In this document: positions 1,452-22,481 of the stretch, one piece after another
Layout of the letters: the number at the start of each line of letters is the position of its first letter
Position numbering within the stretch: the first letter of the stretch is position 1
Origin: Nitrosarchaeum koreense MY1
Lineage (GTDB): Archaea > Thermoproteota > Nitrososphaeria > Nitrososphaerales > Nitrosopumilaceae
Assembly (NCBI RefSeq): GCF_000220175.1
Contig: NZ_AFPU01000001.1
Span: 310,001-374,000, forward strand
DNA: 64,000 nt
Direction of reading: 5' to 3'
Translations under genes and position numbers: made by a program
The notes under the pieces: model-generated
Database searches by the model: none
What the model was told of the DNA's origin: nothing
What the model saw: the letters and a program-made list of their open reading frames with translations, nothing else

Positions 1452-1592
1452 ATGACGCCTGGACAGATGGATGCAAGAAAAAGAAAAATGGCACAAACCA
1501 TTGAAAATCCACCAAACTATTTGAGTGAAAATGCTATTTCTGATAAAAAGAAATGGAAGAATCTTAAGAATGATGGATTGCCACGATACTAA
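1452..1592 (+). CDS. Small basic hypothetical protein, 46 aa
   Basis: A 46-residue, highly charged protein (MTPGQMDARKRKMAQ at the start, KKWKNLKNDGLPRY at the end), without Cys or membrane segments. The ATG has a GAGG sequence 8 bases upstream. The gene sits downstream of the promoter element shared with the small-gene cluster at 20 kb, so it may belong to the same regulon. No function can be assigned. Confidence 0.6.
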   Translation: MTPGQMDARKRKMAQTIENPPNYLSENAISDKKKWKNLKNDGLPRY

Positions 1593-18067: not shown

Positions 18068-18407
18068 GTAGTACAACTCCTTTTCCTGTTGGATTCTTTT
18101 CAATTAATTCTGAAAATGTAATGACTTTTCCACCTTTTTCTAAAATCTTTGCTGCTGCGGTATTTGAGATTGAAAATGAGCAAAGTGTAATCTTATGTTC
18201 AATATCTCCAGTTCCTAATACTTTACCTGGAAATACAACGGTATCTGCATCTTTAGTTAATTGAGCAATTCTGTTTAAATTGATAAATCGTCTTGCAATG
18301 GATGGTTTTAATGCATATTTTGCCATCTTTGCCCAAATTGGAGCATCATTTTTGGTAGATGCCTTCTTTAGATCCTTTGCCATGCGTATGACGACTTGAT
18401 TAGTCAT
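18060..18407 (-). CDS. rpl18e: 50S ribosomal protein L18e (eL18)
   Basis: A 115-residue L18e related to L15. The core NRIAQLTKDADTVVFPGKVLGTGDIEHKITLCSF and AKILEKGGKVITFSELIEKNPTGKGVVLLG is diagnostic. It is the second gene of the rpo3 ribosomal operon, 45 bases after rpo3. Confidence 0.97.
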   Translation of the reverse strand: MTNQVVIRMAKDLKKASTKNDAPIWAKMAKYALKPSIARRFINLNRIAQLTKDADTVVFPGKVLGTGDIEHKITLCSFSISNTAAAKILEKGGKVITFSELIEKNPTGKGVVLLG

Positions 18408-18452
18408 GTGAATAATCCGGTTTAAAACCCAAATATAATGTGTATGCTTAGT

Positions 18453-19091
18453 TTATTCTTTTATTTCGTTAATCATTTCTTTAAACTCTGATAATCTATT
18501 GCTTAACTCGTCTACTCCTGCAAGGATTATCTGTTCTGGCTTTAATGCTCCTGTTGATTCAACTGTTAGTATTCTCTCATTTTCTTTATCTGTCTCAGTT
18601 AAAACTGAAATATTTGCTGAATTCCATTTAGCATGTTCTGTTCCACGGCCAAGTCTAGCATAGCATTCGACTTTAATTCTTTGACCTGCAGCTAATTGAA
18701 CAATTGGAATTTTGTCTGAAGTTGCCTTGACAGATTCATCTTCTGATGTAAGATCACTTGATAATATTGTTCTGGTTGCATCTGAATCTCCTGAATCTAA
18801 AACAAACATTACTTTACAATTAGAACAACCTGTCTCACTTTTACAATCGCATTTAGATGGTTCATTGAATCTTGATAGATCTGTCTTAATTGGAATCAGT
18901 CCTAATCTGTGTGCTAACCCCTCGTCTGGTAGTACAGAAGAATTTTCAATTATATCTACCGTATCAATGGCAAATACTGGAATACCATTAAGACAAATCC
19001 GTCTAAGCGCATTTGCATATTGTAATGGAACTCCTTTGAGCTTGATTGATATTTTTTGATTTTCCTTGTTAATTACCTCTAAAGAAGACAA
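18453..19091 (-). CDS. rpo3: DNA-directed RNA polymerase subunit D (Rpo3)
   Basis: A 212-residue alpha-like assembly subunit of archaeal RNA polymerase. Seen are IKLKGVPLQYANALRRICLNGIPVFAID, LPDEGLAHRLGLIPI and a Cys cluster CDCKSETGCSNCK at about residues 82-94. RGTEHAKWNSANISV follows. Enzymes such as that of Sulfolobus (about 265 aa) carry a ferredoxin-like iron-sulfur domain after the HAKW segment; here the sequence passes directly to the final dimerisation helix, so that domain is missing. The start is TTG, with a TTTTTATG box about 30 bases upstream. Confidence 0.95.
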   Translation of the reverse strand: MSSLEVINKENQKISIKLKGVPLQYANALRRICLNGIPVFAIDTVDIIENSSVLPDEGLAHRLGLIPIKTDLSRFNEPSKCDCKSETGCSNCKVMFVLDSGDSDATRTILSSDLTSEDESVKATSDKIPIVQLAAGQRIKVECYARLGRGTEHAKWNSANISVLTETDKENERILTVESTGALKPEQIILAGVDELSNRLSEFKEMINEIKE

Positions 19092-19108
19092 ATCCTAGAA
19101 GAAAATTT

Positions 19109-19237
19109 TCAAAATCCACATAAAAATCTAGCTGGAATTAGGTATGGGATAATGGGATTTATTGAGATTTGAGACTGAATTATCCCATTGCGATTATACT
19201 TCAAAATTAGATTGCCGTTTAGTTTAAAGTGCATCAT
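19109..19237 (-). CDS. Possible small ORF with strong Shine-Dalgarno, 42 aa
   Basis: An ATGATG start preceded by GGAGG at a spacing of 5 bases opens a 42-codon frame (MMHFKLNGNLILKYNRNG at the start). It overlaps the inverted repeat at 19144-19188 and the presumed rpo3 promoter. Its hydrophobic, Ile-rich composition and lack of any recognisable family argue against it. The SD-like sequence is the only support. Confidence 0.2.
   Translation of the reverse strand: MMHFKLNGNLILKYNRNGIIQSQISINPIIPYLIPARFLCGF
19144..19188. repeat. 10-bp inverted repeat upstream of rpo3
   Basis: ATGGGATAAT (19144-19153) and ATTATCCCAT (19179-19188) are perfect inverted copies separated by 25 bases, in the 235-base gap between the small-gene cluster and rpo3. 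It could form an RNA stem at the end of the cluster transcript or be a paired protein-binding site. Which strand is transcribed here is unknown. Confidence 0.5.
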
Positions 19238-19326
19238 AAAACCTCCTATCTGGATTCGAGGGTATTCTTATGACTTGCTGTTTATGTCGCACTATTCTAT
19301 TTTGTAAGATTTACTTTTTAGAATGT

Positions 19327-19545
19327 TCACTGTGCTGTAGCATGCTTTGTTAAAGGATATGTGATTCTTTTTTCATCATATCCAATTATGTTAAAGCAGA
19401 TAAATTCATGAAATTGTTCAAGAGTCACCCCTCCACAAATTCTACAAATAAACCGTGTTGGTATTCTACATTTTCCACATAATGAATAATTTATCAATGT
19501 GCCTCCACATTTTCTACATGACTCATCAGGCAAACTAATCCCCAA
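19327..19545 (-). CDS. Zinc-ribbon protein, 72 aa
   Basis: A 72-residue protein with four Cys pairs or near-pairs: SCRKCGG, LCGKC and FICRICGG, then a single Cys in EFICFN. This predicts one or two treble-clef/zinc-ribbon sites. It is the last gene of a four-gene minus-strand run starting at 20291 and lies 4 bases after the preceding zinc protein. Such small zinc ribbons often bind nucleic acid or partner proteins; the role here is unknown. Confidence 0.75.
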   Translation of the reverse strand: MGISLPDESCRKCGGTLINYSLCGKCRIPTRFICRICGGVTLEQFHEFICFNIIGYDEKRITYPLTKHATAQ

Positions 19546-19549
19546 AAAA

Positions 19550-19732
19550 CTATACTACCTGTCCTATCTTAATTCTAAAATTCTCTTGATGATTTTTTGA
19601 AGTATGTAATTTATCTTCAATTGAAGAACAATATCCACATAAAGGATTAATCATGGTTGAATCAAATTCAATTTCTCCTATTGCTTTTTGACAGGCAATA
19701 CAAGCCACAATTTTTGTGTCATAGATATTCAA
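19550..19732 (-). CDS. Small zinc-binding protein, 60 aa
   Basis: A 60-residue protein with VACIACQKAIGEIEF and PLCGYCSS, giving a CxxC...CxxC zinc site. Its start overlaps the stop of the preceding gene by 4 bases, so translation is coupled. No named family was recognised. Confidence 0.75.
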   Translation of the reverse strand: MNIYDTKIVACIACQKAIGEIEFDSTMINPLCGYCSSIEDKLHTSKNHQENFRIKIGQVV

Positions 19733-20127
19733 TGATTTACTACCTCCAGAATTTTAATAGGTCTTAGATTTCGATATGCCATGCTAATCACTTTGTTTGG
19801 ATCTAGTTCTGGTTCTGATGATATCAGCATTAATTTGTCCTCATGAGGAACTGTGATGATATTTGTTTTATTTCGATATGATACTATTGCATGTATGTTT
19901 CCAAGTGAATCATCAAATTCTTTTCTCATTGACAAGTCAAGTGCTACTTCCATAAACAACATTTCCATTTTTTGTTTATCTTTTTCTAATGGTATGATAT
20001 TGGAACTAAATCCACCAGCAATCTTTCTTCCCTTGTTATTGATTATTGCTACAAATCTTATTCCTTTGATTTGACACATCTGATTGCAAGTGTAATCATA
20101 AATGTAGACTTGATTACTTTCCATCAA
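19729..20127 (-). CDS. Thaumarchaeal conserved protein (possible DUF6659 member)
   Basis: A 132-residue soluble protein. IKGIRFVAIINNKGRKIAGGF, a middle helix KMEMLFMEVALDLSMRKEFDDSLG and then AIVSYRNKTNIITVPHEDKLMLIS give a beta-helix-beta pattern like roadblock/longin-type domains. I associate it from memory with thaumarchaeal DUF6659, unverified. It overlaps both neighbours by 4 bases, so it is translationally coupled within a four-gene operon with two zinc-ribbon proteins. A regulatory adaptor role is a guess. Confidence 0.72.
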   Translation of the reverse strand: MMESNQVYIYDYTCNQMCQIKGIRFVAIINNKGRKIAGGFSSNIIPLEKDKQKMEMLFMEVALDLSMRKEFDDSLGNIHAIVSYRNKTNIITVPHEDKLMLISSEPELDPNKVISMAYRNLRPIKILEVVNH

Positions 20128-20291
20128 TACTCATCTCCTTTATCTAGCAGAATCCATGATAAACCAGCTAGATCTTCCCATTTGAATTCCGGATTTTGTA
20201 TTTTTTGAAGTGTTTTGCCTTTTTTTACTGGGACACTTTTTACCAGCATTTCTGAAGGCTCAGGTTGCCTTTGTATCACGATTGTTGACAT
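20124..20291 (-). CDS. Small protein with RQPEPSE N-terminal motif, no zinc site
   Basis: A 55-residue protein starting at the ATG at 20291. The first 25 residues (IVIQRQPEPSEMLVKSVPV, then KKGK) match those of the protein at 20745-20957 almost residue for residue. The rest (EFKWEDLAGLSWILLDKGDEY) is unrelated and has no Cys. A longer in-frame start at 20342 would fall inside the conserved promoter element, so the inner ATG, about 26 bases after the TATA-like box, is preferred. It heads the operon running to 19327. Confidence 0.65.
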   Translation of the reverse strand: MSTIVIQRQPEPSEMLVKSVPVKKGKTLQKIQNPEFKWEDLAGLSWILLDKGDEY

Positions 20292-20308
20292 GATAGGTTT
20301 TTGATTCA

Positions 20309-20347
20309 CAAATATATTGTCATAGATACTAATTTGTGGCATGCCTT
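20309..20347 (-). promoter_or_regulatory. Promoter with conserved upstream element, copy 2 of 4
   Basis: On the minus strand AAGGCATGCCACAAAT (from 20347 down) is followed, 25 bases after the A of its ATG, by ATATATTTG (20317-20309). The gene start at 20291 lies 26 bases further on, the spacing expected for a leaderless archaeal mRNA. This drives the four-gene zinc-ribbon operon. Confidence 0.6.
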
Positions 20348-20403
20348 ATTTTTGATTTTATTTTCTATGAAAAATTAAAAATATGTAATCTTATTTTTTT
20401 TAA

Positions 20404-20688
20404 TTACTGGGAGTATGAGATATTGTAATGATACATTAATTCTAAAGTGACACAAAGATTTCTTTTCAATATTCTTATTTTGATTAGTTCTGATGCTAGC
20501 ATTGTACTTTGAGCCCTATCGTTTGTTTTGATGGCCATTACAATTCTATTGAAAATTATATTTTCTCTTCGAAATAACCTCTGTAGTATAATCTCTGCAT
20601 CTACAGTTTTTGTCTGCATCTGTACAAAATATGGTTTGATAACTGTAAAGTTCAAACCATTATTTTCAAACGATTCTATTTGATTCAT
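20404..20688 (-). CDS. Small ESCRT-III/CdvB-like helical protein
   Basis: A 94-residue protein, mostly helical. The stretch EIILQRLFRRENIIFNRIVMA, then NDRAQSTMLASELIKIRILKRNL resembles the first two helices of archaeal CdvB/ESCRT-III proteins (compare the CdvB pattern of Ala-rich ANELAEIRK within a long basic hairpin). Full CdvB is about 200 residues, so this would be a core-only or truncated form. It has its own copy of the conserved promoter element. The link to cell division or membrane remodelling is inference from local resemblance. Confidence 0.6.
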   Translation of the reverse strand: MNQIESFENNGLNFTVIKPYFVQMQTKTVDAEIILQRLFRRENIIFNRIVMAIKTNDRAQSTMLASELIKIRILKRNLCVTLELMYHYNISYSQ

Positions 20689-20704
20689 GGTTGGTTACTC
20701 TCTT

Positions 20705-20744
20705 GCAAATACTTAGTTTTGGTTTCTTGATTGTGGCATGTCTT
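20705..20744 (-). promoter_or_regulatory. Promoter with conserved upstream element, copy 3 of 4
   Basis: Minus-strand AAGACATGCCACAATC (20744-20729) differs at one base from the other copies. AAGTATTTGC (20714-20705) follows at the same 25-base spacing, and the ATG of the CdvB-like gene is at 20688. It begins immediately past the stop codon of the preceding gene, giving the CdvB-like gene an independent promoter. Confidence 0.55.
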
Positions 20745-20957
20745 TTACTGTGTTGCCCAAGATTTGCATCCGCACTTTGTGCATTTTAGAACTAGTGGAG
20801 TGTACGTGTTTGTATCATATACACTTGGTATCGATGGCGCAAAACAAATTTTGCATAATTTTGTTGTTTCAAGTTTTTTACCTTTTATTACTGGAAATCT
20901 TTGAACCAGTATTTCTGAAGGCTCAGGTTGCCTTTTTTGGATTTGGATTTGACTCAT
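20745..20957 (-). CDS. Small zinc-ribbon protein with RQPEPSE N-terminal motif
   Basis: A 70-residue protein from the ATG at 20957. Its N-terminus (IQKRQPEPSEILVQRFPVIKG) is shared with the protein at 20124-20291, including an identical run of more than 20 bases at DNA level. The C-terminal half is a zinc ribbon: LCKICFAP then LKCTKCGCKSW. A TTG at 20978 would lie in the TATA region and is not favoured. It has its own copy of the conserved promoter element. Confidence 0.7.
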   Translation of the reverse strand: MSQIQIQKRQPEPSEILVQRFPVIKGKKLETTKLCKICFAPSIPSVYDTNTYTPLVLKCTKCGCKSWATQ

Positions 20958-20975
20958 GGTATAGTAATGTATGAA

Positions 20976-21014
20976 CAAATATTAGACAATGGTTAGTGAT
21001 TTGTGGCATGCCTT
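20976..21014 (-). promoter_or_regulatory. Promoter with conserved upstream element, copy 4 of 4
   Basis: Minus-strand AAGGCATGCCACAAATC (21014-20998) is followed at the 25-base spacing by TAATATTTG (20984-20976). The ATG of the zinc-ribbon gene stands at 20957. The element-to-start distance is 52 bases, against 51 and 51 in the other two cluster copies. Confidence 0.6.
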
Positions 21015-21114
21015 GTTTTTATGATAATTTTGAAAATCTGACAAGAACGTATTGTTTACAGCAAAATTGTATTTGTTAGAGATAAATACCAAATTAACAT
21101 AGGATATTTCAGAA

Positions 21115-21801
21115 ATGACTGATGTGACTGTGGTTAGATATTCTTACGAGGGCGAAAAATTTGAGATCTTAGTAAAACCTGATCCTGCCTTGGATTACAA
21201 AATGGGTAAGAAAAAAGATATCTCTTCAATATTGATTGCAGATGAAATCTATACTGATTCTGGTAAGGGTACTAAACCGTCAACTGAAAAATTGCTCAAG
21301 GCTTTCAAAACTGAAGATGTAATTGAGATTGCAGAAATTATGCTAAAAAAAGGTGAACTGAATCTCACTACTGATCAAAGACGCAAGATGCTTGATGATA
21401 AGAGAAAACAAATTGTTGCATTTATCGCAAAAACATACGTTGATCCTAGAACTCATTTACCTCATCCTCCACTGAGAATTGAACAAGCATTAAAGGATGG
21501 ACGAATCACAATAGAACCACAAAAAAATGTTGAAGAACAAGTTCCAGACATTGTAGAAAAATTACGTTCTATCATAGCTTTGAAATCTGAAAATCTAGAT
21601 CTTGAAATTACAATACCTGCACAGTATGCATCACAATCATATGCTGTTTTGAAATCTGTCGGAGTTTTAAAAAAAGAAGAATGGCAAAATAATGGTTCTT
21701 TAAAAGCAATACTTGAAATACCCGCTGGAGCAAGGCCAAATGTGATTGATAGATTGGGTTCTATAACCAAAGGTTCTGCAACAGTTGAGGTTATGAAGTA
21801 A
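21115..21801 (+). CDS. Ribosome maturation protein SBDS (Sdo1)
   Basis: A 228-residue orthologue of the Shwachman-Bodian-Diamond protein, which helps release the anti-association factor from the large subunit. It shows the family FYSH domain (VVRYSYEGEKFEILVKPDPALDYKMGKKKDIS) and the GTKPSTEKLLKAF and THLPHPPLRIEQAL segments. It opens the exosome operon, and its stop overlaps the rrp4 start by one base. Promoter sequence is AT-rich with no clear SD. Confidence 0.96.
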   Translation: MTDVTVVRYSYEGEKFEILVKPDPALDYKMGKKKDISSILIADEIYTDSGKGTKPSTEKLLKAFKTEDVIEIAEIMLKKGELNLTTDQRRKMLDDKRKQIVAFIAKTYVDPRTHLPHPPLRIEQALKDGRITIEPQKNVEEQVPDIVEKLRSIIALKSENLDLEITIPAQYASQSYAVLKSVGVLKKEEWQNNGSLKAILEIPAGARPNVIDRLGSITKGSATVEVMK

Positions 21802-22481
21802 TGGAAAATAAAAGAAAATACGTTATACCTGGCGATGTAATCACAACTGGTCCTTTCAGACCAGAACAAAATGTAATTTTGGACGGAAACAAAATTATTT
21901 CTACGGCTATAGGAATTTCAGAAATTTTCGATGATTCTATTAAAGTAATTCCATTGACTGGAAAATATATCCCAAAAATCGATGATCTTGTAATTGGCAA
22001 AGTCGTCTCTCATACCTCGCTTTCTTGGGAATTAGATATCAACTCATGTTATGTTGGATTTTTACCTGCTCAAGATGTATTTGGACGAGATTTTTCTGCA
22101 CATGCCGATGAACTTTCATCCAAGCTAAAGGCAGGCGATCTTGTCGCAGCCAGAATTGCTAATTTTGATAGAACTAGAGACCCCCTTGTAACAATAGCTG
22201 ATAGAGATCTTGGCAAGATTGACTCTGGTCACTTAGTTTCAATATCTACTAGTAAGGTACCACGCTTAATTGGAAAAAGGGGCACTATGATCCAAATGAT
22301 TGAAATGGCTACAAACGCAGCTATTACGATTGGCCAAAATGGTTGGATTGTTGTCTCCTGTGAGACTCCCGAGGGATTATTAAAGGCAAAAAAGGCAATC
22401 AAAATGGTTGATGAAATGGCACATGTTGCTAATTTGACAGACCAAGTGAAAGAAATGTTAGAATCAAAAGGTGAATCATAA
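21801..22481 (+). CDS. rrp4: Exosome complex RNA-binding subunit Rrp4
   Basis: A 226-residue cap subunit of the archaeal exosome. It has an N-terminal domain (YVIPGDVITTGPFRPEQNVI), an S1 domain (about residues 60-135) and a KH domain with PRLIGKRGTMIQMIEMATNAAITIGQNGWI. It recruits RNA to the Rrp41/Rrp42 ring. Its stop overlaps the rrp41 start by one base. Confidence 0.96.
   Translation: MENKRKYVIPGDVITTGPFRPEQNVILDGNKIISTAIGISEIFDDSIKVIPLTGKYIPKIDDLVIGKVVSHTSLSWELDINSCYVGFLPAQDVFGRDFSAHADELSSKLKAGDLVAARIANFDRTRDPLVTIADRDLGKIDSGHLVSISTSKVPRLIGKRGTMIQMIEMATNAAITIGQNGWIVVSCETPEGLLKAKKAIKMVDEMAHVANLTDQVKEMLESKGES

Follow-up and report, generated by a model that had tools for sequence, protein, structure and literature searches.

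The window analysed here is a 64-kb stretch contained in the source genome (G000), a single contig of 1.61 Mb. Six small ORFs, g6 to g1, lie on its minus strand from 20957 down to 19327, and coordinates and translations confirm them as the six tiny genes that the initial annotation had placed there. The series runs from g6 (20745–20957, 70 aa) through g5 (20404–20688, 94 aa), g4 (20124–20291, 55 aa), g3 (19729–20124, 131 aa) and g2 (19550–19732, 60 aa, with orthologues at 83% and 55%) to g1 (19327–19545, at most 72 aa), which starts at a TTG at 19545 or 19533. The listed start of g4 (MPQISIYDN, 20342) falls within a promoter box, while the internal ATG at 20291, which gives 55 codons, lies 54 nt from the start of that box as in the orthologues; given this leaderless spacing, the upstream start results from translating the box as if it were coding and was corrected. 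The 4-base overlaps and gaps noted earlier hold for one part of the locus, the tight string g4-g3-g2-g1, where g4 and g3 overlap by TGATG, g3 and g2 by 4 nt, and g2 is separated from g1 by 4 or 16 nt depending on which TTG is used, whereas g6 and g5 stand apart and each has its own promoter box.

Profile searches of each protein, which the initial annotation had suggested, identified g3 as DUF6659 and g5 as a partial CdvB1/B2, and no Pfam or NCBIfam model matched g6, g4, g2 or g1 at its cut-off. The g3 match (PF20364, 1.5e-11) scores 45 bits against a cut-off of 27. Its AlphaFold2 model (pLDDT 88) has the order alpha-beta-beta-alpha-beta-beta-beta-alpha and reaches 117 PDB chains at E ≤ 1e-3, where all 50 of the 50 listed are roadblock/LC7 and MglB has a TM score of 0.76. 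A roadblock/LC7 fold is therefore predicted, and the alternative wording "roadblock-like or DUF6659-like" turns out to be right on both counts. The model shares its element order with MglB, LAMTOR and the Asgard roadblocks and matches solved structures of this class, however sequence identity is only 6–16%, Pfam classes the protein as DUF6659, and the g3 locus has no GTPase partner gene. The source genome holds eleven DUF6659 matches in 1.6 Mb (L036–L046), two of them with an apparent in-frame stop at the match end, and only g3 was found in an operon under the box.

The 94-aa g5 matches the NCBIfam CdvB1/B2 model at 1.1e-5 over positions 33–101 of 212 and scores 25 bits where the cut-off is 350. 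A profile built from g5 and five relatives finds the PDB CdvB chains 9s9j (8e-7) and 9s97 (6e-6) over the N-terminal region only, and g5 also aligns with a CdvB paralogue of the source genome by hhalign. These values bear out the earlier term "CdvB-like helix pair". The protein resembles the N-terminal hairpin of CdvB1/B2 and CdvB, but the remainder of the Snf7 domain is missing; because of its length, the partial match and the incomplete domain we call g5 CdvB-like, a truncated ESCRT-III-type hairpin, and not a CdvB. The full-length CdvB paralogue closest to it in the source genome (206 aa) adjoins a gene of the tubulin/FtsZ family (Pfam Tubulin, 6e-17) that may encode an artubulin, at L234:1882–4015 (G000:C1, about 881.9–884.0 kb). 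Paired CxxC knuckles in the translations of g6, g2 and g1 mark these as zinc ribbons at the sequence level, as had been noted, g2 being best described as zinc-ribbon-like with its two CxxC. The fourth small protein, g4, had been regarded as a Cys-free relative of a zinc ribbon. It does have no Cys and shares with g6 an N-terminal segment (RQPEPSE..LV..PVKKG) at 63% identity, but the likeness is limited to these ~30 residues, beyond which the sequences differ, and does not extend to the zinc ribbon. Proteins of the g4 type end in D..GLSW(I/V) and acidic residues, in g4 itself as DLAGLSWILLD.

What g6, g5 and g4 have in common lies upstream of them. The promoter of g6 (20979–21012, minus strand) consists of the box GGCATGCCACAA (21012–21001) and a TATA-like element (20984–20977), with the ATG at +55 and no mismatch to the combined box and TATA pattern. 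The same box, GGCATGCCACAA, stands at 20345–20334 in the promoter of g4-g3-g2-g1 (20312–20345, minus strand), followed by a TATA-like element and an ATG at +54, with one mismatch. That of g5 (20709–20742, minus strand) is more divergent, with GACATGCCACAA (20742–20731), a weak TATA-like element, an ATG at +54 and three mismatches. A further box and TATA-like element with one mismatch is found on the plus strand at 1343–1376, upstream of a gene for a 46-aa protein (MTPGQMDARKRKM.., 1452–1592, plus strand) which is a probable regulon member; its homologue lies under the box in G099 and G014, and under a CCGCAA variant at L200. In G014 (L183) the box is kept before the 46-aa gene, and no ~285-aa protein of the kind described below is detectable. 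The interval from the 1343 box to the 46-aa gene contains an ORF of 15 codons (MILKILQNLLSKNEE, 1402–1449, start at +59), which may be a mini-gene or code for a leader peptide.

Including the site at 1343, the combined pattern has four matches in the window against 0.09 expected. In the source genome RCATGCCACAA occurs 13 times against one occurrence of the reversed pattern, and seven of the box sites are GGCATGCCACAA, located 5′ of genes for small or secreted proteins; variant-box matches at 582458 and 996472 do not have the spacing and were not counted. Across 200 Nitrosopumilaceae genomes the per-genome counts add up to 111 exact copies of the 12-mer, spread over 47 genomes, against four of the reversed control. 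Three sets of matches were discounted as chance or artefact: those from GC-rich genomes, those within coding sequence of genus g9, and those in G199 near where contigs begin, GGCATGCCACAA recurring there at the same offset (~40) in many contigs, probably through assembly or a repeat.

An alignment of 62 distinct box sites, almost every one of which comes from a genome that has the ~285-aa protein in its close form, gave AT at columns 22–23 and WWATAWTW at columns 28–35. An ATG at +54 to +57 opens an ORF of at least 40 codons at 37 of the 62 sites, where about one is expected, and some sites are without an ATG in this range. In leaderless-looking genes of the same genomes the start of WWATAWW peaks at −29 to −26 from the ATG; at box sites the TATA-like element starts at −26 or −27, which places the box at about −54 to −43, immediately 5′ of a TATA box of the ordinary kind. 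The objection that the distance from TATA to start is too short was rejected by the same comparison, and we infer that the transcripts of g6, g5 and g4-g3-g2-g1 are leaderless. An RNA element was also rejected: 18400–21900 has no Rfam match, and a leaderless layout leaves no 5′ UTR. A viral or mobile origin was likewise rejected, there being no PHROGs match. In the literature searched, which covers sources outside subscription journals, there was no mention of the 12-mer box or of DUF6659, and within that scope the promoter box is previously unreported.

Many of the box sites have three genes beside them, for a kinase of dCache-HAMP-HisKA-HATPase architecture, a protein that consists of a receiver alone and, in convergent orientation, a protein of ~285 aa; in the source genome the three occupy G000:C1 about 1207563–1210690. 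The kinase (HisKA 1.2e-12, HATPase_c 7.7e-23 in Pfam) adjoins a CheY-like receiver (Response_reg 1.6e-25) with the acidic pocket and the phospho-acceptor Asp, which is the layout of a two-component system. The ~285-aa protein has no Pfam match, but its neighbourhood is constant: at all 30 loci fetched the receiver is next door (30/30), and the dCache histidine kinase is present at 29. Its structural model (pLDDT 84) contains a helix-helix-helix-strand-strand unit at residues 41–122. By VIA-align, residues 36–135 resemble LmrR, PadR, MarR and ArsR proteins with Z between 7 and 8.4, a level that a common arrangement could also give, and Foldseek returned no significant structural match for the model. 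We regard the protein as a probable winged helix.

Copies with at least 65% identity to the source ~285-aa protein are found in 18 of the 200 genomes (in fragments in G041), and the box is present in 17 of these 18 as against 30 of the other 182 (Fisher 2e-11). The sole boxless carrier, G025, which corresponds to Nitrosarchaeum sp. ECS25A1, has GGCATACCACAA three times at that locus. Autoregulation of the ~285-aa protein is suggested by L128:8685–8692, and also by L114, L119 and L130, where its start codon is part of the GGCATGCC palindrome belonging to a box that points the other way. A motility or archaellum regulon was considered and rejected, archaellin being present in only nine of the 18 carriers; its absence from the source genome likewise disfavours such a role.

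The box also varies together with the protein. At loci of more distant copies it reads GGCATACCGCAA or GGCATGCCGCAA with unchanged spacing, and at the named loci base 9 is A in all 26 sites at close copies (CCACAA) and G in 25 of 26 at distant ones (CCGCAA; Fisher 1e-13, a value that overstates independence since the boxes probably switched just once in evolution). The close copies, 19 in number, group in a single clade of the tree (support 100/97) and all have boxes of the A type, and a single A-type locus (L212) strays outside it. Both kinds of box can occur in one genome, each by its own paralogue, as in ECS25A1 (L189 vs. L202) and Nitrosopumilus sp. b1 (L185 vs. L198). Within the ~285-aa protein, residue 91 immediately follows what is predicted to be helix three. 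All 19 close copies have Ala or Ser there and all 35 distant ones Asp (five read by eye from sequence), and the position is a candidate specificity residue. One CCGCAA locus, L218, has four near-identical ~50-nt promoters 5′ of genes that begin with the same N-terminus (MTWRTKKTVLFASLVV), some of them secreted, as if promoter and signal peptide had been duplicated together.

Taken at the level of sequence, the box, its spacing, the regulon membership, the linkage to three regulator genes and the covariation of box and clade all point to the six genes as part of a dispersed regulon under the kinase, the receiver and the winged-helix protein, a reading to which we give a probability of about 70%. 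Points that speak against it are G014, which has a box and no detectable ~285-aa protein, the box at L212, which is of the wrong type, the sites that have no ATG at +54 to +57, and the modest structural evidence for the ~285-aa protein, with nothing significant from Foldseek and a VIA-align Z of only about 8. It is an unlikely but serious alternative that another protein reads the box, for example a paralogous TFB or a small HTH protein, with the three genes being just a further target of the regulon. The position of the box directly upstream of TATA, near which TFB makes its contacts, would agree with this, as would the box that the three genes themselves sometimes carry; against it, base 9 of the box changes with the clade of the ~285-aa protein, even between paralogues in one genome, and a winged helix is predicted in that protein.

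Gene order, which the initial annotation had proposed to follow across genomes, gives a narrower picture. In G032 and G087 (L047, L048) all six genes are found in the same order, flanked by rpoD and the SBDS gene, so that with the source the complete order is kept in three species of the genus, and only there. Outside the genus it is broken, and in G099 g6-g5 are followed by two other ORFs and then g4-g3 at another place in the genome, without g2 and g1. We therefore rejected conserved order as the unifying principle. The six genes might still form a self-contained multi-protein complex held together by their order, with the likeness of promoters an incidental result of duplication in the g4/g6 region, and indeed one duplication is likely given that g4 and g6 share both N-terminus and promoter. 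Even with the order common to three species this seems very improbable, as unrelated genes in many genera have this box in front of them and the order dissolves in G099 and beyond the genus. That the ORFs are random or decaying, as their small size and the four of six without a family match at the Pfam and NCBIfam cut-offs could suggest, can be set aside: conserved promoters and orthologues oppose it, and dN/dS (Nei-Gojobori, source against G087, the more distant of the two other species sharing the order) is 0.23, 0.42, 0.35, 0.13, 0.30 and 0.14 from g6 to g1, so the purifying selection whose lack was to have marked decay is present throughout (0.13–0.42).

The earlier interpretation is thus partly supported: the six-gene group is real, under selection and functionally linked, but the link is something other than gene order. 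A common promoter box, uniting the six genes with further genes elsewhere in the genome and tied to a kinase, a receiver and a probable winged-helix protein, appears the better explanation. The earlier suggestion of a regulatory system without a known name came close, except that the six genes look like regulated targets rather than regulators; a physical assembly of their products is possible. In the regulon as we propose it, the dCache-HAMP histidine kinase would sense an external cue and phosphorylate the stand-alone CheY-like receiver, which would control the adjoining ~285-aa protein by contact. The latter would bind GGCAT(G/A)CC(A/G)CAA next to the TATA box, on its upstream side (about −54 to −43), and turn the leaderless transcription of many tiny proteins on (or off), among them g6, g5 and g4-g3-g2-g1. 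The products might then act together, with g3 as scaffold, the N-terminal peptide of g4 and g6 as docking signal and g5 perhaps as a modulator of Cdv/ESCRT-III. Such a kit of roadblock scaffold, docking-peptide adaptors, zinc ribbons and truncated ESCRT-III would suit signal-controlled assembly at the envelope or a division site, which we offer as a tentative and rather unlikely idea. Equally tentative and unlikely is the wider picture of micro-proteins under a dCache kinase, a receiver and a new winged-helix family with paralogue-specific operators that remodel the envelope or division machinery on an outside cue. DUF6659 gains a predicted fold, and a set of nameless tiny proteins gains a context.

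Among known systems, the copper-limitation motif of Nitrososphaera viennensis is likewise a common motif upstream of thaumarchaeal genes, 35–70 nt before start codons, but its sequence (TTCSGSMTTTGWACYANT) is unrelated to the box and it precedes copper genes (PMC7785015). In the accessible text of a census of archaeal two-component systems, REC-only proteins make up ~75% of thaumarchaeal receivers, and most stand-alone receivers have no inferable function because they have no conserved neighbourhood (PMC5847659). Partners of the ArsR type and an output domain related to roadblock are noted in that text, with no mention of the three genes or the box, and it concludes that these systems act mainly through protein-protein contacts and not through direct transcriptional control (PMC5847659). 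With a conserved neighbourhood, a defined operator, a list of targets and a candidate residue for specificity, ammonia-oxidising archaea now offer a direct test of transcriptional signalling. The three genes resemble the thaumarchaeal REC-only/ArsR gene pairs and FilI-FilR1-FilR2 (PMC5847659) in combining a histidine kinase and a REC-only gene adjoining a predicted DNA-binding protein; they differ in that the partner belongs to a ~285-aa family that is unannotated and has no REC domain, that the kinase is part of the conserved arrangement, and that a specific promoter box and a set of targets are linked to it.
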